From positions 51,336,001 through 51,400,000 of the forward strand of contig CM075101.1 of the NCBI GenBank assembly GCA_037576195.1: a stretch of DNA of 64,000 bases, read 5' to 3'. This document shows positions 10,245-50,000 of this stretch, piece by piece. This DNA comes from Phytoseiulus persimilis (Eukaryota > Arthropoda > Arachnida > Mesostigmata > Phytoseiidae). The position numbers and the translations under genes were made by a program. Position 1 is the first letter of the stretch; every line of letters starts with the position of its first letter. The notes under the pieces were generated by a model, which was not told the DNA's origin, did no database searches, and worked only from the letters and a program-made list of their open reading frames with translations.

Positions 10245-11036
10245 ATACCGTTTACACGTTCAGACAGTCCATTTATGCGAGATATTTCCTTGTGAGAGAA
10301 CGTTCGCTTACCGATTCACCAGTCATTAACCGCCCAGAGCTCGATCTACGCGCTGTAAATACACATGGTCCTGATATAGCTGTGCATATCTGAAGTACCC
10401 TACAGGGAAAGCTCAGCGAACTCCCGTACAAGCCCGGGGGACCTTCGGAGCGCATTCAGAGCTGGAGCCTCCCTAGTCCAAACCAACATTGCTCTAGGCC
10501 TTCGCTTTGAAATTCATACCGTTCGCTCAGAGATCCTAGATTCACGCACAGAGAATTGTTTGGAAAGAAGCGTCATCCTGCAAGAAAGCCAGATTTAGGT
10601 CAACACGCAGTGAACCGCCAATGATAGGTCACAAAAGGTAACCATGAATTTAGGAAGTTTCTAAATAATGACCTCAATCGGTCGTTATTTAAAATTGCTT
10701 CGAATGAACGCTTCTATCAAGGCTTTGGGGCAGGAACGATGTATTCTGTCACCCACTCCCACTCTTCCGCAAAACATACACTGCTCACACGCATCCACTT
10801 CTACCACACAACTATGCGGGCTGTGTATCTCCTCCAAGCCGTATGGGATGAGATCACGACCGAGTTGCTTTGCCGTGAAGTGAGCCTTCTCGGCAATATT
10901 CCTAACCCAAAACCATTTTCTGACGGTTCTCGAAATCCAATTCGAAACCAGAGTTTCCGCCTGAGCGAAAGATTCAGTAAATCTCTAATTGCCATGATGT
11001 ATCAATAACAAGTCAGACTAATAAGTTTCCCCACAG
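10245..11036 (+). other. Spacer or intron between exon A and exon B
   Basis: It ends in a good acceptor, TTTCCCCACAG, at 11036. I looked for a separate promoter and signal-peptide exon for exon B and saw none. The best ATG (near 10814, MRAVYLLQA) is too short and polar to be convincing. The stretch may therefore be intronic for a transcript starting at 6638. Confidence 0.45.
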
Positions 11037-14000: not shown

Positions 14001-16314
14001 GCAGTTACTCAGGTACCTCAAGAAGCGTCACGTCCGGTAGGACCCCCACGTGTGGTCACTGAAGTACCTCAAGAACTGTCACGACCGGTGGAACCCGTGC
14101 GAGGGTTTACTCAGGTACCCCAACAGGTGCTACGACAGGAAACTCCACTGCGTAGAGTCACCCAAGTACCTCAAGAAGTGTCGCAACCGGTAGCACCCTT
14201 ACGAGTGTTCAATCAGGTATCTCAAAAAGTGCCGGAATCGATAGTGCCACCGCGAGTGATCACTCGAGTGCCTCAAGATGTGCGACGACTGGTGGAGCCC
14301 GTGCGTGCGATACCTCAGACGGTACCACAGCAGATCCAGATAATAGAGACCCCAATCCGCCCGTATGCACAACCGCCTCAAGTCGTGTCGCAAGTCCCCC
14401 CTCGGCCGTCCCTGCCTCTACAGACCCCGGCTCCGCCCGCCCGCTCCCCAGCGACGCAGCAATCTCTGCCTGTTCGCCCGAGGTTAGAGATCCAGCGGTT
14501 GAGAACGACCTCGCCTCCGCTCCCCGCAACAAAAGCTCCAGTTGTTTCTGCGGGTTCCGGGGGATACGGCAACGACTTGAGCGACTTCGAAGACTTCGAG
14601 CCCCCAAGAGAGCAGAGGGTAAGAACCATTTAACTTCAAGAAGCAAGGATATTTTAATCGAGTCTCGCTAGTCTCTCCCGAGTCCTATGGAGTGGAGATC
14701 TATCGTCTCTCCCACTCGGAAGACCTCGTAGCTTGATTTGGACTTATTTCCAAAGCATCGAACAGAAATCAGTGGAATTTATTGTTCGATCTCGGGAGAG
14801 CCCAAAGGAAAGAAGAGAATCGAGGAGTTTATCGGAACCACCAAGGCGGCCTCCTTAGCGCCTTGCGAAGGGTTCGGGTCCAAAGTCTTGACTCACGTCT
14901 ACTGCGGAATCACGTCGAGTGCTTTTTGTTCTGGATAGCGCCCAGCTCTTGTTGATCGTCTTCAAATCAATGACGGAGATCCGCTGTGCATGCGGGTCGG
15001 GTGAAGAATCAATGAGCCAGTCCCGGTGAAGTCAACCACGCTGGATCATCGTGCTTTCCACCGTTCCTCGATTCCTTGGGAAGTGCGCGTGATTGAGTCA
15101 TAGCATTGATTGGTATCCTCCATCCTGACGTGGAGATGTGCGTGCACTGAAGAATAAAAATCTTCAGGATTTCTAATTTGGAGTCGTTTTGCGACCCATA
15201 CGAGTCCTCCGCGCGGTAGTTGACGATGTGAGTCGAGGTCCGACTGTGAGTGGAAACGACGGGAAGTGGTGCGTTCCGACGGTACGAGAAGCAAGAAGAA
15301 ACTGTCTGGTTCGAAAATCGTGGAAAATCATCAATCTCTTCCTCATTGCAGCTTCCGCTCGCTACTGCTAGCAGAGAAACGAGAGTTTCAAGCGGAGTCA
15401 GCTCTGGAGAACCAAAGGTACGTCTTCGCTGGCAAGGAGCAGTACTCGACGGTTCAGCCCGGTTTGTCGCGTTGTCTACAGCTCGGTTCTTGTGATATGA
15501 TCACAAGAAGTACGAAACGTCGATCTGAGCTCTGACGGGTCGAAAATTCTGCGAAATCTCAGCGGTTTTCAGAACAAAGATCTTGTATACCAGTAGCATT
15601 CTTCACGACTGAAGCCTGTGAGAAATCCACGAGAGAGAACACCGATTCCCCGAAAAAGCCGTTCACCGTAAAGGTCAAGGCTACCACTTTTCGAACGTTT
15701 ACCGTATCCATATCAGTGACGGCTTTCGAAATCCTGATCACAGGGAACAAAATTGGTAGTGTGCAATGATTCAGCAAATCTGGCGAGAACTCTCGACTAA
15801 CCCCAGAAGTATTTTTTACGTATGTTTCGGGGACACCTTTGGAACATAAGTCGGCCAAGGAATCTGCTGGACAGAGCCGTCCTCCATTCTTCTATTCGGA
15901 TTGCAGGCAAGCGCGGGAGCTGCAACTCGACCAGAGAACTCGGACGTGGTTGAGTTTTCGTCTGACGGTGCACAACGACCAGTGAATGTGGTCATTGGTA
16001 ACATCGATGAGGGTGAGGAGGAGTCGATCGATAAAGCCATATCGACATGATCAGCTCCACTCTGCAGGCGTATTTAGCCGTCGCCCTTCGGCCTCTCAGC
16101 GTATTATGGCCGGGGTCGGAGATCATTCCAGCTAAATGGGACCTTTGCAGGACCGTACAACTTCCACCATCGTCACACACACGAGAATGGGTTTGCTTTT
16201 GTGAAACTTGGGGTACCTCTCTATCAAAAGATGGAAGCTGATGTGATCGCGGCTGCGCAGCCTCCAGTCTACGCAAGACCAGCCTTCCAAGGTGAATTCT
16301 CTCGAGATTCTTAG
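11037..16314 (+). CDS. Proline/valine-rich repetitive protein (exon B form), probably secreted
   Basis: Exons: 11037-14618 (1194 codons, phase 0 at both ends, donor AGG|GTAAGA), 15352-15417 (22 codons, phase 0/0), 15907 to 15997 or 16012 (both donors phase 1), and 16151-16314 (phase 1 start, TAG stop). All junctions are phase-compatible. The big exon starts VQPEIVDIKER, which follows in phase from the signal-peptide exon at 6664-6831; no other first exon is seen. Layout: basic/Pro-rich head; an ~80-residue domain (FMFMRIGGYGFDNG...); Pro-rich linker; a second copy of the domain; about twenty 17-residue repeats; an acidic island GGYGNDLSDFEDF. The last exons give an acidic stretch, then a HHRHTHENG segment and VYARPAF, echoing QYARPTF of exon 1. 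Function and family are not recognised; an extracellular structural role is inferred. Confidence 0.66.
11301..11543 (+). repeat. Duplicated ~80-residue domain, copy 1
   Basis: It encodes FMFMRIGGYGFDNG, a short variable stretch, MLPELVPAGVRVRTPSGVVV, SVRGQPGLYGIHPTP and ends PKPEIVYL. It is the most conserved non-repetitive part of exon B and a plausible folded unit. Compare copy 2 at 12867-13118. Confidence 0.85.
12867..13118 (+). repeat. Duplicated ~80-residue domain, copy 2
   Basis: It encodes FSFMRIGGFGFDNG, a divergent stretch, then MLPELVPAGVRVRTPSGVVV unchanged from copy 1, SVRGRPGLYGIHPTP and PRPEIVYL. Near-identity in the core with divergent flanks indicates an internal duplication under constraint. 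Confidence 0.85.
13294..14310 (+). repeat. 51-bp coding tandem repeat (17-residue unit)
   Basis: About twenty units have the consensus VVTQVPQEVSRPVAPLRV minus one residue (period 17 aa, 51 bp). TQVPQE and RPVAPL are the constant parts. One unit (near 13850) is shortened by two residues. The units are more diverged than the 27-bp array, so the array is older. Confidence 0.85.
14619..15351 (+). other. Intron of the proline-rich locus
   Basis: It is bounded by GTAAGA at 14619 and CATTGCAG at 15351. I see no internal exon or repeat. Confidence 0.45.
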
Positions 16315-24502: not shown

Positions 24503-25524
24503 ATGGCAGAACGAGCGCCGGTGGTGAGCGGGCTGAATTTGGATGATGACATCCCACTCGCCGATGTGGACGGTGAGGAAGTGAAAGAATCCAGCCCAGA
24601 TGGCCCACCTGTTAGCGGCATTCAGAGGTGAGATCTAGTGGTGACCCTCTATCTAGATGTATGATGGGACCCGTTAGAACACCTTCAAACGGACCCAAGA
24701 TGAACTGGGACATTTTCGGAAGCACGTCGTGATAGATTCGTGGGATCGGCAGTTTTCGGCGAGCTGTGCACATGTCCCGACGTTCAGGAACGTCTTCCAA
24801 TAGTTTTCCGAACGATTCGGGGCCCTGGGTCCCATTCTTCGAAATCGTTGCTAAGCAGTTGAGCTTCCCATGGAGGGGGACGGCGAGGATAAATCAGCCC
24901 ATTACGCCTTCCTCGACTCAGGAGAGACTCGTTGATAACTTCGTCCCTCGTTCATTTTGGGTTGTTTTCCAGGAGTGGTAGCGTTCCTGTCGTAGACGAT
25001 CACCTTTACTTCGAAGAAGAGAACCACGATGGCTCAACTTTTTCATGTGAGATAGGGTTTCGTTGTGCCGGGGGATTCGGTCGCAGAATGCTCCGGGTCT
25101 ACGTATTCTCTGACGTGAAATTTCGAATGTTCGCAGCCCTGGACCATGATTTGAACGCCGATGAGTCTGAGGAGAAGTCCCGCCTCATATCTCAAGTCCT
25201 TGAGCTCCAGAACACCCTGGATGGTATGGTACACGAGAATCTAGCCCTCGAACAGAGCACACTTCGTAACGTCCGTAATTGGTTGAAACTCATTCACATC
25301 GGAACCTCTCTATCTCTCCCTAAGGCCTCGCTATTGGTTCTAATGCTACGATCAATTTGAAACTTGCAGACTTATCACAACGTGTAGATTGCGTCAAAGA
25401 AGAGAACCTCAAACTCAAGTCTGAGAATCAAGTCTTAGGTCAATATATAGAAAACCTTATGTCTGCGTCATCGGTCTTCCAATCCACGCATCAACAGCAG
25501 CAGTCTGGTGGACGGAAAAAATGA
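24503..25524 (+). CDS. SCOC: Short coiled-coil protein (SCOC homolog)
   Basis: Exons 24503-24627, 24973-25046, 25137-25223 and 25370-25524 join with phases 2, 1 and 1 into about 146 residues. The N-terminal half is acidic and disordered. The C-terminal half is the SCOC coiled coil: [20 protein letters not shown], then [19 protein letters not shown] and [11 protein letters not shown], nearly identical to the vertebrate protein. The end is a Gln-rich tail ([13 protein letters not shown]). SCOC acts at the Golgi, binding Arl1-type small GTPases and FEZ1/UVRAG in autophagy. The start is uncertain: in-frame ATGs at 24485 and 24464 precede 24503, and a CTTCCAG at 24500 might instead be an acceptor that would make 24503 the true start. 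Confidence 0.9.
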
Positions 25525-31900: not shown

Positions 31901-33303
31901 GAATGTAATACTCGCCACTAACCCAGAGCCGAGAGCTGAGGTCAAACCCTTCTTCAGGCTGTGTCTCTCTCAGTAGGGCGTGCCGTTTGCCGGCCAGTTG
32001 GTCCTTCTCTTAGTGAACACCACTCGGCCTACAACACCAGCCTGAGGAGGACCCTAAAGGACCCTGCTTTCAAATTTTGTCTCGCTTAACTCCGTGTATT
32101 CGAAAATAATTGGTTTCAGAAGAGCCCACTGGAAGATGTGCACAGAAGTGAGGTGGTGAAGGAGTCATAAGGTGAGAATCGAGTTCGAGTTCCAGGGATG
32201 ACCCATTGATAATGAGAACATCCCCCAAAGAACAAGCTTTAACAGGTTTGATAAAACCGCGGGGAGCGTCCACGTTCTCCCCGGGAGGTAGCGAGCAGAT
32301 GGCCGAGGCCGGGTTCCACGATTGTTCTGATGTGTGAGTGACTACATCAAATGAAGATGTTCTCCCAATACTGGAAGGGCCTCATAGAGTCGCACCAACC
32401 ACATAGCGTGCAGAAGCTCGGGAAATGGCTATGCTGAATCTTGGGTTCCTACACTGACGATTCTCGAACTGCTACCAGACTAGATGTTGGGCTGATCTTG
32501 GAATTCTCGAAGAATATGTCAGCAACGAGGGTGGACACGAGGCGTCGTAACACCCACGTCCACTCCAGACTCTTTCACTCTCGATCCAATGGAGAGAAGA
32601 CTCAGGAAGAAGCTGTGCTGACTCTGCACTCCCTTCATCAATAATTGTCTTTCTCGCTTGGCCAAGACTCGTGTGCCTTCCCAGAGAAGCAAAGAGGGCG
32701 ACATGAGAGCGTGCTGCCCGACTCTGAGTCTCAGCTTGTTTCCTTCAGTTTGATATGGTGCGACGGCCGATGCGAACGAGGGTCATTCTACTGATACAAC
32801 TATCATCTGACCCTAGTTTTTAAATTCTCATGCGAAGCTCACATGTAGATACTGATTTCTACACGAAGTCTGTCGGGTCGGGCTGATTCCGGGTGGGAAC
32901 TCTGTGAGCGGTCCAAGGGGACTCCAAATTCCATTCACTCCCTCTGGAGCGATCTAGTTCCTAACTCTGGTACAGCGTTGGGTTCCTCTAGGGAGATGGG
33001 GGAGGGGGGGGGGGGGGGGCGAGTTGTCCGCTAAATAGCTCTACGCTCTAGAGCTTATTCACAACGAGTTTTCGAAGCTTGAACTGGATAGAACGATGAA
33101 ATTATTCACATTGACTTAGTTTTCGAATATTTCGTGGCATGGTAGAGTTCACAGTTTTGATCACAAAGCTTACATTTACACGTCAACGACGGCTCGTCGT
33201 AGGTTTCTATTGAACCAGTGTCGGGGGCTTGCTGAATCTTGCAACCATGTTTCTGTTTGCGTATTTTCCGTTATTCTAATTATCGCTACGATTTCTCTAG
33301 GCG
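28930..33303. other. 4.4 kb without a recognised gene
   Basis: It lies between the 5' end of MCRS1 (leftward) and the first Ig exon of sls (rightward), so it should hold both promoters and probably non-coding 5' exons of sls. Open frames of up to 190 codons (29326-29898 minus) and 164 codons (31013-31507 plus) have no recognisable motif. A G-tract lies at 33004-33019. The last 40 bp end in a polypyrimidine tract and CTCTAG at 33300, an acceptor for the exon with ATG 33304. Confidence 0.45.
33004..33019 (+). repeat. Poly(G) tract, 16 G
   Basis: An uninterrupted run of 16 G follows GGGGGA. It lies about 300 bp upstream of the first coding Ig exon. It may be a polymorphic homopolymer or a G-quadruplex former; its length is prone to assembly error. 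Confidence 0.8.
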
Positions 33304-36300
33304 ATGGACCCACCTCGGATCGAGAACCCGCTTCCGAACGTTTGCGTCCGCGCTGGAGAGCCCCTAAAATTGGAATGTCAGGTCGCAGGAACACGACCAA
33401 CGCTCGTTTGGCTTCACAATTCGAGAAACCTCGCGGACGCGAGAGACGTTCAGGTGAGATCATTGCAGAGTGTTATTTTCTCTCGCATATCTTGAATCGC
33501 AGATTCCCGGAACACAACTCTAATGATGCGAATTCCGAGAATCACATCCTTGTGAATGCTCATCATCTCTGGAACTCCATAGATACGTTTCTCTGAAAGC
33601 ACCGGTCTGTGCTCGGTCGAGATACGAGAAGTGTTCCCCCGCCATGCCGGAATATACACCCTTCTAGCTCGCAACGCTTCCGGTGAAACTTATACTTCGT
33701 GCAACGTCACTCTCGCCAGCAGACCCCCGCCAGAAACGAGGTACGATGCCGGATGGAGAGTTCGCTGCTTTCCAAGCTTTCTCTCGTCTCAATCTCCGAA
33801 ATTTCCCCCTCCGGCTCGCGATCTTCCGATTGTTGATGAAAATATCTCTCTGCGGGCATATTTCACTCGCTCTAATTCACACAAAATCCTTGCCCTGAGA
33901 TCCTGAATCGATTACAGCGATTCCGATCTAACTTCTGACATAGAGCTGTCGAAACCGGTGGTGCGACAAGCATTGAGGGATCAGAACGTTGTGGAAGGGG
34001 ACAGTGCGTGCCTTCAATGTACCATAACCGGCGTACCTGAACCCGAAGTCATCTGGTATGCTGAGCGACTAGAATAAATCGATTTCGTTGACGGTTGAAA
34101 TATCGCATTGTCGAGAGCAGAGAGGGAGCCGGAAGAGAGTAAATCCCTCACGCCCCACGTGTACGCAGGTATCACAACAGCAAACCAATCAAGGAATCGA
34201 GAGACTACAAGTTTCTGTTCGAGGGGGATCGTTGCTCCCTCGTGATTCCAAGCGTCACGAAGAATCATCAAGGGAGCTATCGCTGCAAGGCGCTGAATCC
34301 AGCTGGAGAGACTTCTTCGAGCTGCAGAGTTAAAGTTACTCGTGAGTACTGTGATGAGGTCGTCAGCTCAGTAGCCGTGTGTCAACTCATCAACATTTTT
34401 TGATGCCTTCAGCCTCGCCACCCACGATGGAGATCGCTGCCGCGGGCTCCGCGTCATCACTGCGGATCAGCCGCTTGCTGAGCGACGTTAACTGCCGCCA
34501 TGGAGACCGTTTCAAGCTGATTATCGAGATCGAAGGCTGCAACGAGCCTGAAGTAATCTGGAGTTTCCAGGTGACAAAAGTTACTCCTTATGGCTTAACT
34601 ATATATTCCGCTGAATCAGCCTCTCTTGGCCCGGCCACTACACAGACTTATGACCGTTGAACCCAGGGCCGTCCCATCTTACTGGACCAGGACTTCGTCT
34701 TCGACCAGATCGGAAAATCATACATACTCGAAATTCCGAAGGCGACGTTGGACCATGCAGGCACATACAGGTAGCCGTCTTCCAGACTCTGGGGATTTCT
34801 AGGGTTCTGATTGGATGATCTCACGTGAAGTAGTTGTTCCGAGGGCATTCCGTCTGGATGATCGATGTTTCAGCGTTGAAGCCCGTGATCCCACCGGCAG
34901 CCGCCACTCCTCGTGCCGCGTCATCGTGGACCCGCCACCGCAGAGTTCTTTAGCTTTGATTCAAGCAGCTGGCGGAGGGAGCGATGTGGTCTCTACGTGA
35001 GTGTTTAAACGAATCGTTAGTATGATGACAATGTCCTCGAGCAGCGGTCACGCACCTCCATAACATACCGTCTCTAACATTATGATTGTAGACACGTCAC
35101 AAAATCGTTCGTGAGCTCCAAGAAGACCATGTTGATGCAGAAAGTGTCTGCCTCGAAATCTGAAGCAACCACAGGCGGTCAAACTGTCCATTCTGAGGAG
35201 CATCAAGCAGCAACCACTGAGAAGCACGGATATGAAAAAGTAAAACTTTCGTCGAAGATTAGCGATACAGAACTCCGTGTATGATCTCGCCTGACTCCAT
35301 GATGTCGTGATCGGAAAGTCCGCATGGGCTCGTGGGCCTCAGCAGAGGGGAGCGGGATGTCGAGTGAAGACATTCATCTCCAAGACCTGTTCGTGACGAG
35401 ATTCGTTCGCTTTCAGATGGGAGATAATGCTCCTCAAGAATACCATTCGAAAGAATCGTTCGGTTTCGACAGGCTCGGTTCAAATCCTCCACAGCATTAT
35501 CACACAAAAGAAGTTCGAGATAATAGAATCGAGGGACAACAAACTCAACTGGCCGTCAGTATACATATTTGAGATTCTCTAGCGGTGACGAAGATGTTCC
35601 GGCGTGTTTAGTTTAACACAATCTAATCATTCGTTCTCGAACTGTTTTCGCGCTCTTCTCCGGTGACATAAGTTCATGTCAGAGAAACAAGGGCGCTGTG
35701 GTGAATGTTCGAGCAATATACTTTGTTTTGAGACCAAGCTGATCTTCCCATGAGCTCTCCCGATGGGGAGTTTTTGTGTCTGCCCGATGTGAGAGATGGC
35801 CAAGCTGTGATGCTACGTTTCAGCCTCGAGAACAGATTTTTTTTTTTAGCTCCCAGCATGCTAAGACCCTAGTGAGCGCATCACAACAGAGCAAACTCAA
35901 TAAGTATCTTTCCTCTCCATAGATTGAAGGGAAAGCTGCGGAAGGCACACAGGCATCAGTCCTGCCTGTCACAGAACTAGCGGCGCAAGCTGTGAACATC
36001 ACAACGAGAGTGTCCGAGCCTCGCCAGGTAAGCTCGTCGGATCGGGCTCGAACTCCGGCAGATTTCATTATTGGAATAACGGAGATTATCTCGCTTCCCG
36101 TTCCCAGGTGTCCATTCTGCAGAGATCGGGCTCCGCTCACATCGCGCCAAAGTTCACGAAGCCCGTCGCGAGTGTCGCTGTCTTCGAAGGAGAGCCGTTG
36201 AAGCTTGAGGGATGGTTCACGGGTGCGTTACGAGGCGTGGATGTTGATCCAGTTCCCCATCTATTCGTATCCACAAATCCACTCTGAAAGTTATTCTTCC

Positions 36301-39300
36301 CGAGTATTGGTCGGAGGTGTCCGTCAATTGTCCCATCATGATCATTTTCAGGACACCCCGAGCCGATCGTGAAGTGGTCCAGAGGGAGCACAACTCTATC
36401 GAACAAAGCTGAGCTGCAACTCACTATCAAAGAAGGTTATACTAGTTTGGCGATCCCCAGAGCCATGCTGAAGGATTATGCGAGATACACTTGCGTCATC
36501 TCAAACGACGTGGGTAGTTCGTCAAGCGCAGCAGACGTCGTTGTTCAGAGTGAGTTCAAAAAACGTGGTGGAGAACTGAAACCAATCCTCAGTACGGGAT
36601 GACTTACTCAGAAGAATTCGAAATGCAGCGAAGCGCGAGGCCCCACAATTCACCAGACGGTTGGCGGCAAGAGTTTATAGAACCGGGTCAGATATCACGC
36701 TGGAAGTTGAAGTCAGCGGACAGCCTCAGCCAGAAGTGAAGTGGCTTCGCGACGAGCAGGATTTGAAAGCGATCAACCGGTACAAGATCCAGAGTTCTGG
36801 CAATATACATACACTGAAAATGCGTGTAAGTTTTGGCGTTCTCGCATCGACGAATTCTCGCGCGCGTTTATCGAAACAGCTAGATAACTACCATTCGCAT
36901 TCCTCACAGAACGTGACAGGTGCAGACTCCGGAAGGATCACTGTTCTCGCCACGAATGTCGCGGGCGAAGCCCAATCCATTGCAGATATCTTCGTCGAAG
37001 ACGATGCTTCGACCGACGAAGAGCGCGAAGTGAGTAATTTTCCCAATACAACTGTTGGACAGGATGCCATTTAAGCGGAGCGAACGAATCACCTAGCCAT
37101 ATATTCCCATCACAGGTTTCAATACGGGACTACCATATCGAGGATGAGAAAAAGATGGAGGTAAACATCCGGGAGAAATCAGATAACGTTGTTAAAGGAT
37201 TCTTCAATAGCGTTTGAATCACGTCAACGGTTTGCCCCGTAGAATCGAGTGTACGGAGTGCGGATTAAGAATTCCCAGTCAGTGAGATGCTCGTGCTGAG
37301 CGCAAAGTTCCAATTGCCGCGGCACACTCCACTCCGTCCCCTTTTTAGTACTAAAATCAGGCTTCGAAATCCGTATCGGATATCTCTAGGAATTGTTTGG
37401 ATAGAATTTTCATGTGTGTCGTAGTTGTATGTATGCAGTGAATCTTGGCATGTTTCAGCGCACGCTGTTCAGTGCATCGTTCAGCAAAACCTACGGGTCG
37501 TCGGAGGAATCTTGCCCAATAACCAGCCCATTTCCAACCTCTTCAAGATCGACAAGCATGCCGACCTCGTTCACAACACCCAATAACACTACAGAAGCTT
37601 CGGTGACATCGGTTTCGTGCTACACCATTCCGGGTCTCACGAACACGGTGAAAACCAACTCAAAGACCAGCCTCAACTTCCTGAGTCCCATCGATTCACT
37701 CAGCACCTCCTCTGAAATGCGCGAAACGAAGTTCGTTGTCCGCCCGCGAGACGCGCCGCGCGATGAATGTACCGGCGTGGACTCATCGTGTTCGAGGGAA
37801 GATGGACACTCGATGTCATCTGAAAAGATTAGCCTCAACAGTTTGGAGTGCTGTAAGCGCGGATGCGGCGAATCGACCAGTCATGTCGATGAAATTGAAA
37901 TCGAGACGAGAGGCGGGAGCGCGAACAATTTCTCCGACGAGCAAATCAGTACCGAGACGAAAGAGACTATCAAAACTACTACTGAGAAACGTGTCGTGGT
38001 CAGACGAAGCCCATCATCTGGGCAAGGTACCGTTATCCGAATCAAGATGTCACCTTGTCGCTGCGCGAGCGAATGCACGAGGTGTTCGTCGACAGCCACG
38101 GAACAAACATTGAAGACCGCCACCCAAGATCGGAAATTAGGATCACGTCACCTGAGAGACACACGCCTTGACATCACTGCAACGATTCCGACGCTACGAA
38201 AACCGGTGGAGTTGCTCAGATCGGAAAGATGTTCCAATTTCTGGCCCCAGACTCAGGGAAAGCAAAATCAAAATGCAGCCCATCCGGAGCCCCCTCCAGT
38301 TCCGACTTACGAGCGGATGGCGCGAACGGAGGAGGAAACTGTTTCCAAGATTGAAATCCCCCTCAGACAGTCCTCGGGAGTAGATCGCGAGAGTAAGGTA
38401 CAGAGCTCGAAAATTTCTGTCGGATCAGAACGCTCCGTTTCGATGAGCCCCATACATCCTCTGCCACCAGTTGCGAGCAAGATCAAATCGATGCCGTACC
38501 ACCCGGCCATAGTAAACTTGCGCGAGCCAGAGCTGAACGAACCTGAGCTGGCATCCACCGAGAACTTGGAGCAGCCTGTGTACGCGAAAATACGCACACA
38601 ACCGAAGCGAACACAAATAACACGCACGAAACCGATGTCAGAAATTAACACACGCATAGAAACAGATATCCAGAATGACTCCGAGGGACAAAAGGTTGGT
38701 TTTGACGAAACAAATGACCAATTGATGAATATGAGCTCTAGTTGTCGTGATAGAGGCTTAACATGAGTGACCTCGTACCGGCCGATCAGTTCGGTCGACC
38801 CTTCATTCCCCCTACTAGAAACAAATCGCGTTTTCCTGCAAGACCCATCCGTAATTTGGTCGGGGGATAACGTTTGAATTGCGAATACCGATGTCGAGGT
38901 TCCGAGACTTAACGTGAGAATGTCCCAGGTAACCGTTGTGCAAGCTGAGCATCTGCATCGCGAGAACACGGTGCTGATTGAGAGGAATGTGACGCCGAAA
39001 CCGAAGGTAACTCACGAATTCCAACGATTCTTTCCCCATTCCCGGGGTGAATCTACTAGCGAGATGTGCCCTCCAATTCAGGTTCTTGCCCTGCCTGCAC
39101 CGACACCGCAACCGCAAGAGCCGCCAAAGCAACTCCCGATGCCCGTTGGAACTCCGACGCAAACGGACGAGGATTCTCGGATGAGAACATCTGTCGATGA
39201 GCGCATCGAGAAACACGTTCACACATCGCAAAACATACTGAAACGGCAGCAACAATTCATCAAGCAGAACACAACTGAAACTAGCCGTTTCACGCTGACA

Positions 39301-42300
39301 CCGCCCCCGGAGTCGCCCAAGCCGCGCATCGAGGCTCCCATAACACCCGCTGGATCGCCTCTCCCACCTGCGGAACAACCAAAACCTACAAAACAGAGTC
39401 CGCCTGCTGCAGCCCCATCACCTCCACCGCCACCGGTTCGGGCACCAACGCCTCCTCGGAAGGAGCCGAAAAGCGTTCCAAGACCTGTTGTGCCTCAGCA
39501 TGTCGAGAAGCTGCCACTGATACCGAAGGCTGTACCCGACCCTCCAGCGCAGAGCCATATCGTGCAGCGAGATTCAGTGCAAACTATTCAGCAGCAAACT
39601 CAAATGACTAGGAAAGAGGAACTCAGAACTGTCATCAGCCACCAGTACCAACAAGAACATTTCGGGCTGAGGACAACGGAGCCGAATCCCAGAGATTCAC
39701 CGCGTCCGGTCAGGACTTCTTCGCCACCGCCTCCAACCCCAGAGCTGCCTCCCGTCAACTCACAGGTGGGTTTCCGTTCGTAGGCCGACGCTCCTTCAAA
39801 TTTCAGTTCGTTCCATGCACTAAGATTCTGGCAGAATCCCCACGAAAGTATTCTTGAGGAACTCATTCGTACTCCACAGATTATGGCGGAGCGGAAGGTG
39901 GAACAGAGGTCGCGAACCATTGAATTCGTCGCTCCGCCTTCTCCTTTGTTACCGAAGGAGTTGCCGGGCCCACCGCCCGGGATCCCCGGCGCGAAGCCTA
40001 AGAGACTGCCGACCGTCGAAGCGCTCGCACCCCTGCCTCCAGTGCAACCGAAGGTTAAAGCACTGCCCGAAAAGCAAGCCGCTTTCATTCGCTCCCCAAC
40101 GCCGGTACTAGTTCGTCCTATCGTAGCCCCGCCAACTCCTCCACCACCTCCGATCGTGAAGCCGATCGTTGCTCCGCCGCCGCAGCGAAGGCCTCCGCCT
40201 CCTCCTCAGTTCAAAGATGAGCTCTTGACCTATGAGCAGATCAGGCGTCAGGAAGAAGAGCGCATACAGAAACACTGTCGAAAGATCACTCTGATTGAGC
40301 AAAGGGAACGTCAAACTCAGAGACGAGAAAATCAGACCCATATCGGGACAGTTTCTTTAACGAAGACACCCGTCCCTTTGGATCCCCCTGACGTCAGACT
40401 GAAGCCGATCGAGTGCAAGATGGTCACAGAAATCATAGAGCCTCCGAAGCCGCAAAATTTGGAGGAAGCTGTTTCTGAGTTTTATAAAGTCCACGATGAA
40501 ACAACCCGGCGAGTGCGAACGATTGTTCGTCAAGAAGTGAGAACACAGTCATTACCGCCCCAGAACATACCAGTGGTTTCGGTTCAGAGCTTGACCTTCC
40601 CTCCACCGCCGCCGCCCCCGAAACGATCGCCAGAACCGATGTGCCATGTCGAGAAAAAGGAATCTCATCGCTTCCAGCAGACGCGGGACTTCCGGTCGAT
40701 CTCTCCAGTACTGCTACAGAAATCCCTACATAAGGTGAGGGAGACGGTTGCCCGAGTTCTCCGGGCATTATAAAACTGACCCACCAAGCTCATCAGTTGG
40801 TTTTTCTCACAATATGAGAACCTTTCTAACGGCCGACTCGCTCTCAAATCAGGAACCGAGAGCACCGTCGCCCACTCCCATGTGTGCTATTCAGGAGATC
40901 GATCTTTTGAAGCAGAAAAGCACTCAGCAGAAGGATCCTGTCGACATTCTGAACTTCACATCCACCGTTACGAGGCAGAAATACTCGCCTGAACCGGTAC
41001 GAATGGTCAGAAGATTGCATGGCGCACGCTGCCCCTGCATGAACTCCTGCTCTGAATTAGTACATGATTTATTCGTGCGGGTCGCAGGTGCAGTACGTTG
41101 ATTTGCGTGAGAGAAGGAGCGTTCCACCGCCGTCAACCACGCCCTTGTGTCATCTACAGGAGATAGATCACAGGCTCACTGGAGTCGATCGAGTTGATAC
41201 AACGCTCCTCGTTGAAATGACCGAGAAACAGTAAGTGACGAGTTCCGATCCTTCGGTTGTCGTTATTTTCGTCGCAAACGATATTCCACAAATAAACCGG
41301 GAAACAACCAAGCAATCGGAGTCTCACAGGAAGCACACGAAAGCGGCCCAATCGATGGAGCTGGGGAACAAGTATCTTTCCATCGACGAGACGAATCAGA
41401 CCACCCGGGTTCCATCGGAACCAGTGAGGTTCTGTGTGCGAGAGCAAACTTCGCGCTCGATCAATACTAAGCAAAAACAACAGAACTCGCTCGTGTCGTC
41501 AACTCTGTCGTCCACGAACAACACTCCGGTGAGTGAAAGTACCAACAGCATCTGCCCAACGGAGCAGGCCCTCATCGTACTCTTGGAACTTTTCTAATGT
41601 ACGACCATGGTATCCAGGTTCATTGGAGCCGAAGATGTCGCAGCGTTGATAGGAATGTTCTGCTGACGGAAACAACTCGGGAGAGGAAAGACGCAGTCGA
41701 TCTGGTTGGTACATAAAAATCAAGCCATGCGGCGGAAAATCCACGTCGCAGCCACATTAACCCACTCGCTAACATCGAAAATTCAAGGTCAATAAGTCGT
41801 GGTTGAGTGAGCGACGTTCAGTTCCAAGGAACCCTCCTCCATCTTCAGCCACGGTCTACATCGACCAGCATACGAAAGTGATAACTGCGCCTCCAGTTCT
41901 CCCGGTCCAGGTGATGATGTCGTCCAAGGATTACCTCGTGTTGGATTCTGCTCCGGAATTGCCCCGGAATCGGATGAATACTTTTGGTTCTGGCTCCGAG
42001 GAATCGCTGTAGCGTGCCACTCTCACGAATGAACTCTTGCAGAATCTACCGGTGTTGCCGATCGTGCGTCGCTCCGATCAAATTTCCACCGTTTCCGTTG
42101 GCGTCTCTGACGAGCGCCCTTCATGGCAACCGATCGCCCCATCCTTGGTGGAGGGGCGCTATTCCTTTCGTGGCGTCACAGATAGCAAGGTACTCGAGGG
42201 ACCTAAGAGCGTGGTTCGTGAAACAACCGGAGAAGTGGGAAAAACTTGTTTGTTCTCTGAAGGTTTCAGCGGATACATCACTCGTCAGGATCGAAACGAG

Positions 42301-42711
42301 TACGGTGCCTGCTCCGCCCTCCACCGCAAGACGAGATGAGTTGCGACAAGTTCATCCTCAAGAGCCCCTCTACCGAACTTTTCCGGCGAAGAATTCTGCG
42401 ACGAAGCCAGCAGTACCACTGGTCGATTATCTGACTCTACACCAGGTCTGTACGTGAGGAAACGGAGACACTCTGAATAAATCAGGCCTGCTGTAATGAC
42501 TCTACGTAGCAGAACTCGGACAATTTTTTATTGCGAACTCTTGTGCTTGCGAGACACGATTGATTCATTTCTCGCTTTTTCGCTCCAGCTCGAGGGACGG
42601 AGTTCGAACATGGCGCGCAACTGGAGCGAACAGAACGCGTACCTCGAACAGCGCTCCTACCGATCTACGGATATCGAAAAATCAATGGTAATGGCCCTCA
42701 ACGGACCGTGA
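33304..42711 (+). CDS. sls: Sallimus locus, zormin-like part: Ig domains plus long disordered region
   Basis: About 26 phase-consistent exons, roughly 2050 residues. Ig exons: 33304-33453 (MDPPRIENPL start), 33583-33740, 33918-34055, 34169-34341, 34413-34570, 34667-34770, 34874-34996. Linker exons: 35092-35239, 35417-35554, 35923-36027. Ig exons: 36108-36222, 36352-36549, 36629-36825, 36910-37029. Then 37116-37160, 37459-38694, 38929-39765, 39880-40734, 40853-40996, 41088-41230, 41330-41528, 41618-41704, 41788-41910, 42043 to about 42216, 42270-42445 and 42589-42711 (stop TGA). Five I-set Ig domains are followed by ~1300 residues of Ser/Thr- and Pro-rich disorder. In flies zormin, from the 5' half of sls, sits in Z-discs and M-lines; a muscle role is inferred. 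ATG 33304 follows an acceptor, so an upstream 5' UTR exon is likely. The exon 42043/42270 boundary is uncertain (best phase-compatible donor is weak). Confidence 0.8.
38929..40734 (+). other. sls: Proline-rich, SH3-ligand-like region of the zormin-like part
   Basis: Two large exons (38929-39765 and 39880-40734) encode many short poly-proline runs (PPPPPV, PPTPPPPP, RRPPPPPQF, PPPPPPPKR) spaced by Lys/Arg/Glu-rich helices such as EQIRRQEEERIQKH. Runs next to basic residues resemble SH3- or EVH1-type ligand sites. The role as a scaffold for adaptor proteins at the Z-disc is inference. Confidence 0.55.
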
Positions 42712-42971
42712 AGGATTGAGTGCGAATTCGCGGACTCGGTTGATGTTGAGAACTTCCTGGTCGCTTCCAACGGTTAACACAGCATGTAGAGAGATGTACC
42801 CTGACCGAAATGCTACCACAATGTTTTATGTTGACCCTCAGTCTGATGCGTCGTCTTCGTCCATGTGCTGTCAGTTCACGCGCCGAACGCTGCAATCTTG
42901 TCGAGCGTGAAATGTTTTCCTTCCAGCGGTCTGCCTCTGATTGTAAAAACGAACGCTAACGGAGGATAAAT

Positions 42972-42977
42972 AATAAA
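42972..42977 (+). terminator. Poly(A) signal of the short (zormin-like) transcript
   Basis: AATAAA lies about 260 bp after the TGA that ends the frame read through the 42687 donor. It supports a transcript that ends here without kettin sequence. Confidence 0.5.
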
Positions 42978-43761
42978 GAGCAGTGTGGCATGAATTCGGT
43001 TGTGAATCTGGATTGCAAAAGGTGGATCCTGTGATAGCGGCTCAAAAGCTGATTTTTTGGATGATGCGAGAAATATGCGAGGAATGTACATGTATACATC
43101 GTGATTCATTCCGGTACAGTGCCGGCGTCTGAAGATCATCAGGAAGAATTTTCCTGGTCATTTCCCCGTTTCCGAGACGGAACCGTACTTGTTCGAGACT
43201 TTCTTTGCTCTTGTCGACGAGCTTATCAGCCAGGAAAGCGCAAATGCTCGTTTCGAGCATCAGAAAGCTTTTAAAGGCAATGCATACCAAGTGGATGTGG
43301 AGAGACACTCGAAAAAGGTCTTAAAATACGAACTCCAGGGGGAAACAGTGCCGAGAATCGCGATCACTGACGGAACTCCATCTTGTGCATGCATGTGAAC
43401 CTCTTTGAGGATGTGCCAGGTTTGCTTATCGGGGGAAACTCCGCCAAATATCAGAGCCGAAAGCTCCGTCGGGTCAGGGGCGAGTGGTCCGCGAGTGGAC
43501 CCGCCAGCCTGATTATGCGGCCCGCAGGCCGCAGTATAGGTTCCCCGCAGCTGCTTCAGATGAATTTTCTGAGCTGGAAGTCCCATGAGAACAAACTCCA
43601 TCAATTCGCTCGAAATCAACACCAATTGCGAGGGGTTTTCGGAGTGGCATATAACCGCAACACGATTTGTCTTATCTCAAAACGCGTGCCAGCAGGAGGT
43701 AGTCCGCGAATCCGGGATATTCCATTTGTCCAATCTAACGGAACACATTGAACGTTTCCAG

Positions 43762-43816
43762 ACGGGTACCGTGCCGAAGTTCACACACACCGCTGGAAGA
43801 CGTTTGCCGATATCAG
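43762..43816 (+). CDS. sls: Candidate alternative exon linking zormin-like to kettin
   Basis: This 55-bp segment lies between AACGTTTCCAG and GTAGGT and encodes TGTVPKFTHTAGRRLPIS. It starts in phase 0, matching the donor ATG|GTAATG at 42687. It ends in phase 1, matching the microexon at 46993-47023, which begins with two leftover bases. The peptide contains VPKFT, similar to the first strand of I-set Ig domains. Support is by phase and splice sites only. Confidence 0.4.
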
Positions 43817-44639
43817 GTAGGTTAGCGGAATTCCAACGGGAGGTGGTTGGGGGAGAAGAATCAACGCCTCAAATGATGAGACAGAAGGAGATGCTCTCAT
43901 CTCCGTTCTGTTCTCATCTCAGTTTTGGAATGAGATAGCGCGAAGATTTGTGTGGTGAATCATATGCATGACGCAAGATTCTCGGGAAAGAATGTCAACC
44001 TCCCTCATCCGACCCGGCAGCGAATCAGAGACAAATTATGAAGCTGAACTCGCATCCGAACGACACATCCGTAACAGACCGCCGTCATCTCCCCACTTTC
44101 TGTGAATGTCGTGAAGTTTCAAACTGGTCTGACATGATCACATTAGTCCGGAAATTTTCGTGCTGATCACGTTCAATCTTAGTATCTGGCTGGCTCACAC
44201 ACATAGTCGCCCTGACTTCCTCGAGGGCGTCGGAATGAAAGAGAATCCGTTTTTTGTGACGAATCCGCAGACCGTGTAGATTTGGACTGTCTCTACTGCC
44301 CACACATTGCTTCCTGGTGCGTGGACCTTCACGGGGATCGGGCGGAAGAGCGAGTAAAAGAGAGAGAGGGAGTTGGAATCAGTTGGTTCCTGAAGGCACA
44401 CGACACGTTCCATCCGGAGAGCGGGTCAGTGACAGGTGAAGCGGGATATGAGCTGAAGGAGATACGAACGTGCTTTTGTAAGAGAGAACCACCAATGGAG
44501 AGCAACGACAGTGTTAACATGTCGGCCATGTTCTCTTCTTTCAATTCCTTACGTCGGCGAGTCTGTGAATGCCTTGGAAGAGCAGTTCTTGCCAAGAATA
44601 GGGCTGGAAGCGTGGTTCGTCGCGGCGGCTATCTGGTCA

Positions 44640-44770
44640 GCTAGCCGTCGCGCCCGCTGTTGACTAAGACAGTCGCGGGATCGAGTACAGGAGAGCCTCG
44701 CTCGCCGGCCGGCCGGCCGGTCTGACTGCCTTCCGAGCTACGAGCTCGCTGACTGCTATCTTACTCATCC
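44640..44770 (+). promoter_or_regulatory. Possible kettin promoter / 5' exon region with GGCC repeat
   Basis: This is a locally GC-rich stretch (CGTCGCGCCC, CAGTCGCGG) ending in a palindromic GCC(GGCC)n run at 44704-44720. It stands out from the surrounding AT-richer sequence and lies 2.3 kb before the ATG at 47001. CpG-rich islands of this kind often mark dispersed promoters. There is no TATA box. Confidence 0.2.
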
Positions 44771-47000
44771 TGCTCTATGGATACCCACCTAGCGTCATCG
44801 GGTTAGGCCTAAATAGTGACAGCTAGGCTTAGAGAGAACCCGAGCCACTGGTATTTCTCGACTCAGAACTGAATAACTTGTATTCCGCAAGATCATTGAT
44901 CAGAGCCCACTTTTGTAGAAAACGTGAAGGAGTCTCTTCCATCTGGCTCTCTACTACTATAGAATGGACATCGACAAAGACCGTGAACCCACTACGTTAG
45001 CATCGAATTGACATATCGGTCGAATTTCGCCATCCAAAGACGAGCTGATTAGGCGGTGATTCGAGGGGCCTCATTTGAGATTTCAAGTTAGTTGCTAATC
45101 TGGACCCGTGCGAGACCTTAGCATTAGGAAAACCGAACAACTCATTTGCGGGTGCTCATCTGACGGCGTCTACACTCCATCGAGACAGATGGAGACAACC
45201 GGGGAGTCTCACCAAAGCCGCTGAGAATGTTACCGTTCATAGATCAGCGGGTGCCAATATTTCCCGAGCTATCGGGTCCTATGATGCGACGCGGTGGGAA
45301 TGTGCGCCTCTCAATGAGACTAGCCTCTTCCTTGGAATGCACGCCCCAGACCGGTTGATTCCCCTGCTCCATGTCTTAGTTAAAATATTCGGCATCGGGA
45401 GAGATGACGAACTTCAGGTCATGTCGTAGATTCCAAACCGCTTAGGAACGGACTCAGATTCCACGACTCATTCACAGTAGAACGTTCTCCCTGATCTGAG
45501 AAGGGATTGCCAGCCAGGAGGATTTGCTCGATGCCGCTCGACTGACTCGGACCGAGCTCACTCTTCTGGGTAGGCTTAGGTCACGCAATGAGAGAACCCA
45601 TGCATTCTCGGGCAGAACCGCGATGTGGAGCCCGCAGAATGCCCTCGTTTGGAGAAATGTAACTCGATCCTCCATGGCTTTCATCCCATCTGATTGTGGT
45701 TCTCCAATGTACCATGAAGACCCGTGATCGAGCTCAAACAATGAGCATTTCGGAGAGTAAAGAGATGAAGAGGCGCGAGAGCAGATGCCCCCGAGGATGA
45801 CCCTCTGCTCCAATCGTAGGTTCGGATCTGAAGTTCGACCCGACGTATGCGCACGTCATGAATCGATTCATCATCTGCTCGCCACGCGAAGTTCTTCGCT
45901 TCATTCAGCGAGCATGAAATGCTAGAGACGAGTCATCCGCTACAAATTGCCGCGAATGTGGCCTTCGTTAGGCCTAACTGGGCTCGGGCGGCCGGTGAAA
46001 ATCTGAGAGACACCCGTAGTATGACTTGAGATGTTTCCATTCGGGACGAAGCTGATCACCCTGACTTCGGTTGAGAGCGAAGGCGAAACCTCCGCGAAAA
46101 CCGCTGGCTTAAATCGAACTTCAACCGGTGGAATACAATTGAAATTCTCTCTTGTATGAGCCCCGAGTTCATCGGGGCCTTAAAAATATGCATCTCCAGA
46201 AATAAACGTGTCTCAGTCTCATATCTGCTAAAAAAGAGTGAAGGACTATGATTGCGGCTGATTTTTTCTCGGCTCAAAGATATTGTGGTCGATCATGTGT
46301 TGCTATTGGTCTTTGTCTGCTGGTGACATAATCTGCCGCTTCCATGAGCTGACAGACCCTTTGCTTTTACTGGTGCCCAATCTTCCCTGGTGCCTACTGC
46401 AAGCCACCCGAAATACTCTCTTCCAGTGGGAGGACTGGGAGAGGGAATTCAGAATTCTGAGCTACTTAAGGTTGGACTCGGACTCTGCCTTTCTAGAAAC
46501 GAATCTCCAGCCCTACGAACGGTGCGTGTTCGAGTGTCGCTTTTTGTCGCTCGAGAGATTCTTCCTTGGATTATTTTTGTCGGTGTTATGGAAGTTCTGA
46601 GTGACGATCCCGAGCGGGCCCAAACAGGATAGCAAGCGAATTCCTCGGCTTCCATCATGCTTTCTCCGAAAGCTTTCTCACGCAAGATCTTTCAAGGAGA
46701 ATGCTTAGGAAAAATCTCGAACCACAATTGGGTGCAAGAATTTTCTTAAACATTTTTCTCGAAGGGTTTGAATTCTGGATCACCTACAACCATATCAGTT
46801 TATAATTGTACAGCGAAAATCGCAACCGTAGTCAGTGCGTGAGAATCGGAAACCGGCATCGTGAAGTGATTCCTCTCTGAGCGGTTCCTAAACTCGAGCT
46901 TGTGAAGTGTGAATATGGGTGCTCCAACATGGATTATCGCTCGCTTCGGAAGTTCATGAACCTAAAACATCCCTGATTTCTTGTTGTTGCAGATCCCGGG

Positions 47001-50000
47001 ATGGTTGTTTCACCTCCCGTCAGGTAAGTTTGGACACGTTACTTCTCTGAGTAGTTCTCATTCTGGATTCATTCAGTCGTGAGATTCGTGCACTGGCAGA
47101 CCAAAAACGATGTTCATATTCCCGCTGAACGGACAAACGTTGGCGGCTCTAGATTCGCCAGATCACAGATTAGCCAATCGTTTGAGACTGTGAAGGTCGC
47201 GAGGGAAAGCTCTCGAGGGCGCGAATAGAGCTCGATTCGATTCCATCCCTTGTCGGAAGCAAACATTCGATGTTCGAATCTTCGATTCTTCCCACTGTAT
47301 GCAATAGATATTCGAAACAGAAATCGTTTTTTAGGAGCTCACGCAGTTTTGTCTCTGAATCAGAAGCAGCGCGAGAGCAGGGAAGCGAACATTACCGAAT
47401 CACATGAGACCCGTGTTATTCTCAGAGCTTTGCCTATAAGGCAATGCCTTCCCGGTAACCGGAACAGGCAGGTCTCCCTTTGAGCCAGAGCATCTCTGTG
47501 TGCCTCTGTGAGAGGGACAGGTTTCTCGCGTTCGATTTGGTCTGCTGAAGTGCCCAGGGCGATGCTGGACTACGATTTACCAACGAGATTTTCGCGTTCC
47601 AAGAACATATGGTCATCGAGTCCTCGATGTATGGTCCAAGCCCTCCATAATCACAAGGAGAAAGCGCTTCTTCTCCTTGTTCATATGTCTCCAACTTGCA
47701 AATGTGAGAGAAGGGTCTCGAAGGAATGTACCGGTTACGGGTCGTATATTGGTCGAAGTGTTGCAGCAGCAGCAACTGCTGCTGGTCGGGGCGCTTCCCC
47801 AGAGAGCGCCCTGGCTCGCTGACTCATGTTGGGTCCTTTGATGTTTACAATACTCTGAGAGCCAGTCTAGGCCGGAAACAGAACCTTTGCCAGGAAGCTT
47901 CGCTCGGCCATAAAGAGGGTTCCGAGCAGCGTTCCTCGTCAGAGCTGAGATTCGACCATGTCGGATTCTGCGGTCATTCGTTGGGTGCTGTGGGATCGCA
48001 GTTCATTTTCCATCGTGTTCAATGAGGGTACGGAATCGGCTCGGAGGATGAGCAACACTCACTGTTCTCAATTATCCTCAGCGCGGGAAGGCGACAGCCC
48101 CCAAGCTACATGATGACTCCTCCCGTATTCACCCGCCAACCGACAGGCGGACGATTCATAGAAGGAAGAGACGCAAGGTTCGACGCCGTTGTCAGCGGAG
48201 AGCCCATGCCTCAACTCGTATGGTCCAGAAGAGGTCTCCCGATTAGAAACGACCACAAGTGAGTGGAACAGTGCGGCAAATCATTCAATAAAAATAATAC
48301 TCTGTTCACCCAATCACGAACACACCATTCGATTTCAGGCGCGAAACTGATTATAATGCTGTGACTGGCGAAACTTATTTGCTTATTCGCTCAATAACTT
48401 CCGACGATGATGGAGAATACACATGCACCGCGGTGAACGCGGCAGGAGAAGCCGTTTTGGTCGTAGCTGTTGTGAGAGATATCACTGGTGAGTTACAATC
48501 TTCTTTCGTCGTGAAAAGTTCTGATCGCCGTGTCTGAGCAGAGAACGACGACCAGCGAACACTGACCTCTTTCTGCATTGATAGCTGGTCAGCAGATGAT
48601 CCAGCAGCGTGCTCAAGCGAGCACGATTCAGTCGACGCAAGTGCATCAGCCGACCCCAGCTCAAGTAGTCAGGTCTTCGTCGACTTTGTTCAGTGACTCC
48701 CAATTCTATCACAATGGATCGGAGCAAGCTTTCCATGTGGACACATTCGAGTACAGACTTCTACGAGAGGACGAATTTCGGGAGAGTCTCCTGAGATCTG
48801 TCTCTTCTTCCGACACAACGGAATATATCGAAGTAGGTTTCGTCTGATGGAGCCCTATTTCCCTGTACAAAGCTGTTGTGTCAAACCCGGATAATGCAGC
48901 AGTCGGCGAGCCCGTTGAAGAGCTGTTCCTGCCGCACGCACTTATGCTCACGTTCCTCTGCAGGTTGTGCATAAATCGAGACCTTTGGCTTCGCCTCAAA
49001 TCCAGGGGAGACCCAGGAATTCGAAGCTGATATGCGGTTCCGACGCAACGTTCCAAGTACGCGTTCCGGGAAACCCGGAGCCGCGCGTCACGTGGTTCAA
49101 GAACGGTCGCAGGATCCAAACGTCGTCACGGCACATCATCTCCTACGTCGACGGCTTGGCGACTCTAACGATCCGCAACTGTCAGTCGGACGATGCTGGT
49201 TACTACACCATGCTCGCCGAGAACTCCAAAGGCCGCGTGGCGACCTCGGTCCATCTTGTCATCGAGGATTTGACGAGGTACCAACAGCACCACGAACAAC
49301 AGCAGTGGTCACAACACACAACTACCACACATGTGCAAGCCACATTCAGTCAGGACAACGCAAACCTTTACCAAGCGCAGTGAGTAGGAGCGAACAGGCC
49401 CAAACAAGAAAGCATTGCGCACAAAAAAAGCCGATAGCAGCGGATTGAGAGAACCAGGTTATTTAATCATATGTAATAAGCAACCTGTGGTGAGTTCCGA
49501 GACGCAGTGAATCAAAGCACAGCTTGAACACGTAGCTGGAGGGAGTTTTCCGGAGCATTCTCTAGGATTTTGAGCTCCGGCATTCTCAAACTTGCCTCGT
49601 TTCACAGCACGCCGGCGGAGTACCGCTTGGCCGAGAGTCAACAGTGGATCCACGAAGGATCAGAGGACTCAGCGGCTCTAAAACCCACATTTGTAAAGTT
49701 GCCTTGCGACAAGGTCATAACGGAAGGTCATCAGATACGCTTCGATTGTCGAGTGACGGGGCGACCTGCACCTGAAGTCCTCTGGTTCCGCGAGGGAAGA
49801 CAAATATGCGACGACAACGCTCACAAAATCTTGATCAACGAGGGTGGTCTGCACGCTCTGCAAATCAATGATTCAAAATCGTCGGATGCTGGAATTTGGA
49901 CTTGCATCGCGCGTAACAAGAGCGGCGAATGCAAAGCTGACGTCCGGTTGACTGTAATTGGTGAGCAGAAAGTTGTGGGAAGATTACCATGAAAGTGACG

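Follow-up and report, generated by a model that had tools for sequence, protein, structure and literature searches.

A probable sallimus-type locus in Phytoseiulus persimilis with a candidate path that would join its zormin-like and kettin parts

Can one locus yield a zormin-like protein, a kettin protein and a fusion of the two? The question is raised by a window of 64,000 nucleotides from the arachnid Phytoseiulus persimilis (GenBank assembly GCA_037576195.1, contig CM075101.1, here C1; C1:51336001-51400000, forward strand, of a 181-Mb genome); positions are given in window coordinates throughout, unless prefixed with C1. The locus is most likely of the sls (sallimus) type, with a zormin-like part followed by kettin on one strand. 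A preliminary description of this DNA had proposed that four exons (42589-42687, 43762-43816, 46993-47023 and 48082-48258) form a phase-perfect path through both parts, and every feature that it named sits where it was placed. Our reading is that the two parts would by default be separate units and that a weak donor and a short linker exon would allow them to be fused; we put this forward tentatively, as a proposal that falls slightly short of an even call.

The kettin part is assigned by its domains. Exon 48082 has to be entered in phase 2, as had been described, and together with the next exons it encodes two immunoglobulin (Ig) domains. The main exon that follows carries at least 13 I-set matches; of the 12 steps between the matches listed, 9 measure 393-402 bases, or 131-134 codons, and two others are of double length (801). 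Kettin is distinguished by Ig domains that are separated by linkers of about 35 residues, and the spacing of the main exon fits this hallmark. Ig matches extend to at least C1:51509601, and in the Protein Data Bank (PDB) the main exon matches titin and other Ig proteins. There may also be a likeness to the N-terminus of fly sls.

Upstream, on the same strand as kettin, at least five I-set domains lie between 33.3 and 37.1 kb. They are followed by a region (37459-41528) in which a Pfam scan of four open frames returned no family above cut-off. No spectrin repeat (PF00435) was matched near the locus at E values up to 0.1 in a search that ran exon by exon and that split or diverged repeats can escape; the nearest match on C1 lies about 5 Mb away. 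A SEC14 domain (CRAL_TRIO), sought with the PF00650 model only, had no match at E values up to 0.001 within 2.4 Mb. Because neither a spectrin repeat nor a nearby PF00650 match was found, we call this part 'zormin-like', a name that reflects where it lies and its Ig domains, rather than 'zormin'. The same term in the preliminary description is borne out for the position directly upstream and for the Ig domains, but not for spectrin repeats.

This arrangement resembles two known systems. According to excerpts of PMC12198301, fly zormin combines several Ig domains with four spectrin repeats and lies directly upstream of sls; the excerpts also cite, after Labeit 2006 and Burkart 2007, transcripts that span the zormin-sls and CCDC141-titin pairs. 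Zormin is described as the smallest Sls isoform in an excerpt of PMC5521747 and is entered separately from sls in one of PMC8534295. The appeal to Drosophila as a locus that makes separate and fused products therefore holds as far as these excerpts go, as both separate and spanning zormin/sls transcripts are cited (PMC12198301). As in the fly, for which excerpts of PMC12198301 cite spanning transcripts, kettin is immediately preceded on its own strand by an Ig-rich part, and separate products are possible; unlike in fly zormin with its four spectrin repeats (PMC12198301), no such repeats were found here, and the linker exons are predicted. The vertebrate CCDC141-titin pair ('connectitin' in the excerpts of PMC12198301) likewise places an Ig-bearing neighbour just upstream of a titin-type gene, with spanning transcripts cited there, but the locus described here has no CRAL_TRIO (SEC14) match nearby; the excerpts add that vertebrate titin also spans the A-band, which sls does not. 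Events of this kind are thus already known, and any novelty would lie solely in the exact junctions used by this genome.

Between the two parts lies a gap of 5.3 kb, in which we scored every open AG..GT exon of 9-400 bp (positions 42688-48081) using splice and codon tables trained on the locus. With a loose site cut-off, the scan yielded 1020 distinct exons, among which a 31-bp microexon (46993-47023) ranked first and a 55-bp exon (43762-43816) ranked second; without a cut-off, it yielded 4879 exon-phase rows, with the three phases of the microexon at ranks 1-3 and the 55-bp exon at ranks 4 and 5. Stricter, curated splice tables were built from 26 donors and 24 acceptors that are fixed by Ig homology or by the kettin frame; they exclude the exons under test, except for the donor of exon 48082-48258, while codons were scored as before, with the table from the gene-finder training. 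Scores were compared with 1000 simulated sequences that match the dinucleotide make-up of the gap, and with 337 kb of other real DNA, which is the harsher null: the gap antisense, 15-33 kb of the window on both strands, 33-52 kb antisense, and the upstream flank (both strands) and downstream flank (antisense). The flanks, of 90-98 kb, contain genes and were also divided, like the window, into overlapping test windows of 4.3 kb. The gap has no second copy in the genome besides itself, no Rfam family reached its gathering threshold in the window, and nine of the 12 gap open reading frames of at least 100 residues listed, together with one just upstream, had no Pfam match above cut-off.

The microexon is very probably a real exon. 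It is preceded by TTGTTGCAG and ends in CAG/GTAAGT, its top score falls in exactly the phase that is needed (1 to 2), and its splice sites are beyond chance: a pair as good occurred twice in the 337 kb and in 10 of the 1000 random sequences (earlier tables). An equal exon in phase 1 to 2 arose in 10 of the 1000 random sequences, and in any phase in 34 (curated tables; 3 and 23 with the earlier tables). Its ATG at 47001 is in frame, with G at -3 and +4, and would suit a kettin-only start, although ATG 48110 in exon 48082 is a possible start instead. The phase assigned to this exon in the preliminary description is therefore very probably correct. Were the splice-site pair a product of chance, kettin would be translated from ATG 48110 in a 5'-extended exon 48082. 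The any-phase count is compatible with this, as is the real DNA scored by total score, in which an equal 1-to-2 exon appeared in 22 of 266 windows of the gene-holding flanks and the total score was reached 25 times in the 337 kb, counts that also take in long coding exons of other genes (17 of the 25 lie on one strand of the upstream flank). The count in the needed phase, the rarity of the site pair and the well-placed ATG argue against it, and no equal 1-to-2 exon appeared in 43 windows elsewhere in this window, with one in 19 kb antisense at a slightly lower cut of 15.9. We consider a chance origin very improbable.

The strong acceptor of the microexon requires some exon upstream of it, and the best single candidate for a linker is the 55-bp exon. 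It is preceded by TTTCCAG and ends in CAG/GTAGGT. The preliminary description was right that an exon with these coordinates can be read from phase 0 to 1, but the exon has no support beyond chance and does not support itself, and several observations weigh against its use. An equal exon in phase 0 to 1 upstream of the microexon arose in 216 of the 1000 random sequences with the curated tables (831 in any phase; 81 and 468, respectively, with the earlier tables). In the 337 kb, its splice-site pair was reached 144 times, or about 2.3 times per gap length, and its total score in this phase 92 times; equal exons were present in 4 of 43 windows within this window and in 114 of 266 in the flanks. 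Its acceptor ranks low, with only 4 of the 24 curated acceptors at or below it, and its coding signal is almost nil (0.4). A candidate branch point, CTAAC about 24 bases before the acceptor, was rejected, as CTAAY at such a distance precedes 0 of 19 kettin acceptors, 0 of 12 zormin-like acceptors and 35 of 1548 random AGs. In phase 0, the exon encodes TAGRRLPIS (43789-43815), which resembles SAGRRQPPS at the start of exon 48082 (48082-48107). We did not count this likeness, which was noticed post hoc: shuffled peptides gave P = 0.029, and 28 of 4744 open non-coding stretches match as well.

Fusion might also take another route, through a 25-bp exon (46497-46521), through a direct junction between 41538 and the microexon, or through an exon that is invisible to the scores. 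The 25-bp exon closes the frame with a score of 10.5 in phase 0 to 1; exon 41330-41538 (model support 0.49, mostly joined to 41849) leaves phase 1, which the microexon accepts; and there are twenty open 0-to-1 exons before the microexon whose two sites match or exceed the weakest sites of the kettin model. However, donor 41538 is weak (2.07), the 25-bp exon falls below the 55-bp exon with both sets of tables, and cut-offs at the second-weakest kettin sites leave three open 0-to-1 exons, of which the 55-bp exon is the best. Taken together, these alternative routes seem quite unlikely.

The frame along the proposed path does close. The four exons translate without a stop when joined, the frame is closed by the two top-scoring exons of the gap, and it is broken between 42687 and 48082 if neither the 55-bp nor the 25-bp linker is used. 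Both gap exons, however, are open in all three phases, so that what had been called a phase-perfect path is one 1-in-3 coincidence, namely a joint length of 2 modulo 3. A full chain of phases 0 to 1 to 2 that is equally good arose in 8 of the 1000 random sequences, and any frame-closing chain of two exons in 18 (curated tables); with the earlier tables, the counts were 0 and 2 of 300. The rarity of the chain is due to the microexon (2 compared with 144 site pairs in the 337 kb).

The upstream end of the path is an exon that can be read in two ways. Exon 42589-42711 combines an acceptor (ending at 42588), an internal donor (ATG/GTAATG, after 42687), a stop that ends 24 bases after that donor and a poly(A) signal downstream, and only one of the 26 curated donors is equally weak or weaker. 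The stop with its signal at 42972 and the alternative donor had both been described accurately. Composite terminal exons, in which a weak internal donor is set against a poly(A) site, are familiar from the immunoglobulin heavy chain, with which this exon shares a strong acceptor, a weak internal donor, a stop close behind it and an AATAAA downstream. These features, read from the sequence alone, are those of a composite terminal exon whose weak donor would compete with polyadenylation. The chance of an AATAAA within 262 bases of this non-coding DNA is about 8-10%, and the copy at 42972 is not unique, with further plus-strand copies at 42476 and 46201. By eye, we also noted that the exon at 41849-42012 (+), if its donor at 41910 is unused, reads to a stop at 42010-42012 ahead of the AATAAA at 42476, which may give the zormin-like transcript an additional end further upstream.

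An exon of this anatomy could also end one of two neighbouring transcription units that are never fused in frame. The zormin-like unit would then end at 42711 and kettin would begin within the gap; its first exon, non-coding, would end at donor 43816 or 46521 and be spliced to the microexon, and translation would start at ATG 47001 or 48110. In favour of this, the microexon has a strong acceptor that calls for some exon before it, and donor 42687 is weak; the 55-bp exon has a strong donor and a weaker acceptor; and just two donors that score at least 6 exist in 42712-46992, those at 43816 and 46521 (2 compared with 1.4 expected), so that either could end a kettin leader. The 55-bp exon could thus be a non-coding leader, which is the chief alternative to its use as a linker. 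None of the 17 introns in the kettin model (55-476 bases, mean about 190) is as long as those of the fused path within the gap (1074, 3176 and 1058 bases), a difference that would be expected if transcription also started or ended in the gap. On the other side, the two highest-ranking gap exons close the frame, and transcripts that span zormin and sls are cited for the fly in the excerpts of PMC12198301, from other papers. No exact TATA-type or MEF2-type consensus was found between 42.7 and 48 kb, which makes an internal promoter only hypothetical and counts both against two separate units and against the default that we propose. Overall, two units with no fusion are a real possibility, although not the one that we would expect.

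A home-made gene finder, based on a hidden-Markov model, was used to compare these paths; training it on the entire 264 kb was rejected because of contamination by proline-repeat frames. Without anchors, it preferred 42589-42711 as a terminal exon (0.68 compared with 0.23), which agrees with two separate units, and it assigned 0.07 to the 55-bp exon and 0.06 (1 to 2) and 0.08 (2 to 0) to the microexon. These low values probably arise because the first kettin Ig exon scores weakly, as 48082-48258 itself does not exceed 0.05. When the kettin Ig exons were anchored, the best path used all four exons of the proposed fusion, with 0.64, 0.67 and 0.82 for the first three. The controls show that the fusion probability is not diagnostic: the value of 0.82 compares with a mean of 0.63 in 150 random gaps, 49 of which were at or above the real value, and with 0.41-1.00 for seven pieces of real DNA, reversed or taken from elsewhere. 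The total path score was exceeded by 1 of the 150 random gaps and by 4 of the 7 pieces, some of which perhaps contain true exons. Fusion was 0.59-0.99 in eighteen settings and about 0 in all nine with a mean intron of 300, which speaks for two separate units; this is a setting that penalises any path across the 5.3-kb gap and to which the kettin mean of about 190 is nearer. Given the average of random gaps and the outcome with short introns, we rejected the idea that the probability from the gene finder proves a fusion.

Direct observation covers which domains are present, where the features lie, that the frame is open, how strong the microexon is and how weak donor 42687 is. From these we infer every step of transcription, splicing and regulation, as follows. 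By default, the zormin-like transcript would end in exon 42589-42711, at the stop at 42709 and a poly(A) site near 42972, and kettin would start in the 5.3-kb gap, pass through the microexon and be translated from ATG 47001. If donor 42687 were used before the poly(A) site, the RNA would run on towards the microexon, and a short linker exon would restore the frame, from which a zormin-kettin fusion could result. We regard the existence of such a fusion in some form as somewhat probable, and the use of exactly the junctions 42687-43762, 43816-46993 and 47023-48082 as doubtful. It is similarly speculative, and in our view rather unlikely, that the microexon has two roles, as the start codon of kettin alone and as a phase-correcting bridge in the fusion, and that the balance between the weak donor and the poly(A) site sets the ratio of three proteins. 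The 'probable switch' of the preliminary description was too strong a term. With the 55-bp exon at chance level, rival linkers, the option of a leader and no promoter consensus, the site is a possible switch only.

Table 1. Features of the zormin-like and kettin parts and of the gap between them, in window coordinates.
Feature	Position	Strand	Remarks
Zormin-like block of seven exons with three I-set Ig domains	33301..34996	+	Spliced by eye; PF07679 E 3.9e-55, 3 stretches
Zormin-like Ig domain, exons 36108-36222 and 36352-36549	36108..36549	+	PF07679 E 6.7e-18
Further zormin-like Ig domain, exons from about 36580 and 36910-37029	36580..37029	+	PF07679 E 2.6e-17, for open frame 36580-37074; exon 36910-37029 taken from gene model
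Unique, partly proline-rich region, several exons	37459..41528	+	Gene model
Composite terminal exon (putative), reading to TGA 42709-42711	42589..42711	+	Acceptor score 6.6 (curated tables), 7.95 (other table)
Weak internal donor ATG/GTAATG that would make the exon internal	42687..42688	+	Score 1.6
AATAAA poly(A) signal	42972..42977	+	261 bases past stop
Linker candidate, 55-bp exon, phase 0 to 1	43762..43816	+	Weakly supported; second-best distinct gap exon
Competing linker candidate, 25-bp exon, phase 0 to 1	46497..46521	+	Score 10.5, compared with 11.8 for 55-bp exon
31-bp microexon, phase 1 to 2, ATG 47001 in kettin frame	46993..47023	+	Best gap exon
Kettin Ig1, first part (entry in phase 2)	48082..48258	+	Continues through 48339-48487 as I-set domain
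Kettin part, Ig domains with linkers of about 35 residues	48339..64000	+	I-set spacing; gene model; Ig matches run past window

Elsewhere in the window, an open frame at 24893-25360 (+) has a weak match to PF10224 (short coiled-coil protein; E 0.0014, 19.1 bits, cut-off 26.7) and could belong to a SCOC-like gene that precedes the zormin-like part. A frame of 946 residues at 7304-10144 (+) consists of APAPRPI-type repeats; other frames are also open over long stretches there, and these were taken as exons when the gene finder was trained on the whole region. A second long frame, of 1202 residues at 11025-14633 (+), repeats the module MRIGG.GFDNG ... GLYGIHPTP and has no Pfam match, and its tail (GYGND..DFEDFE) resembles the end of the 7304-10144 frame. 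At the left edge of the window, exons predicted at 1-708 and at the end of L009 (+), from the training run that was set aside, contain a cysteine-rich, zinc-finger-like stretch, CDECNRGIHWSCL.

At present, the fusion is a well-defined hypothesis on a known type of locus, and the defined junctions make zormin-sls read-through testable in this animal. Judging from the fly proteins, the choice of Z-disc protein and any tethering of the zormin-like Ig part to kettin would bear on the anchoring of thin filaments and on muscle stiffness. The locus also bears on the proposal, made in the excerpts of PMC12198301, that the zormin-sls and CCDC141-titin pairs derive from one ancestral gene. If the same arrangement does exist outside the insects, the fusion would be ancestral and not an oddity of flies.

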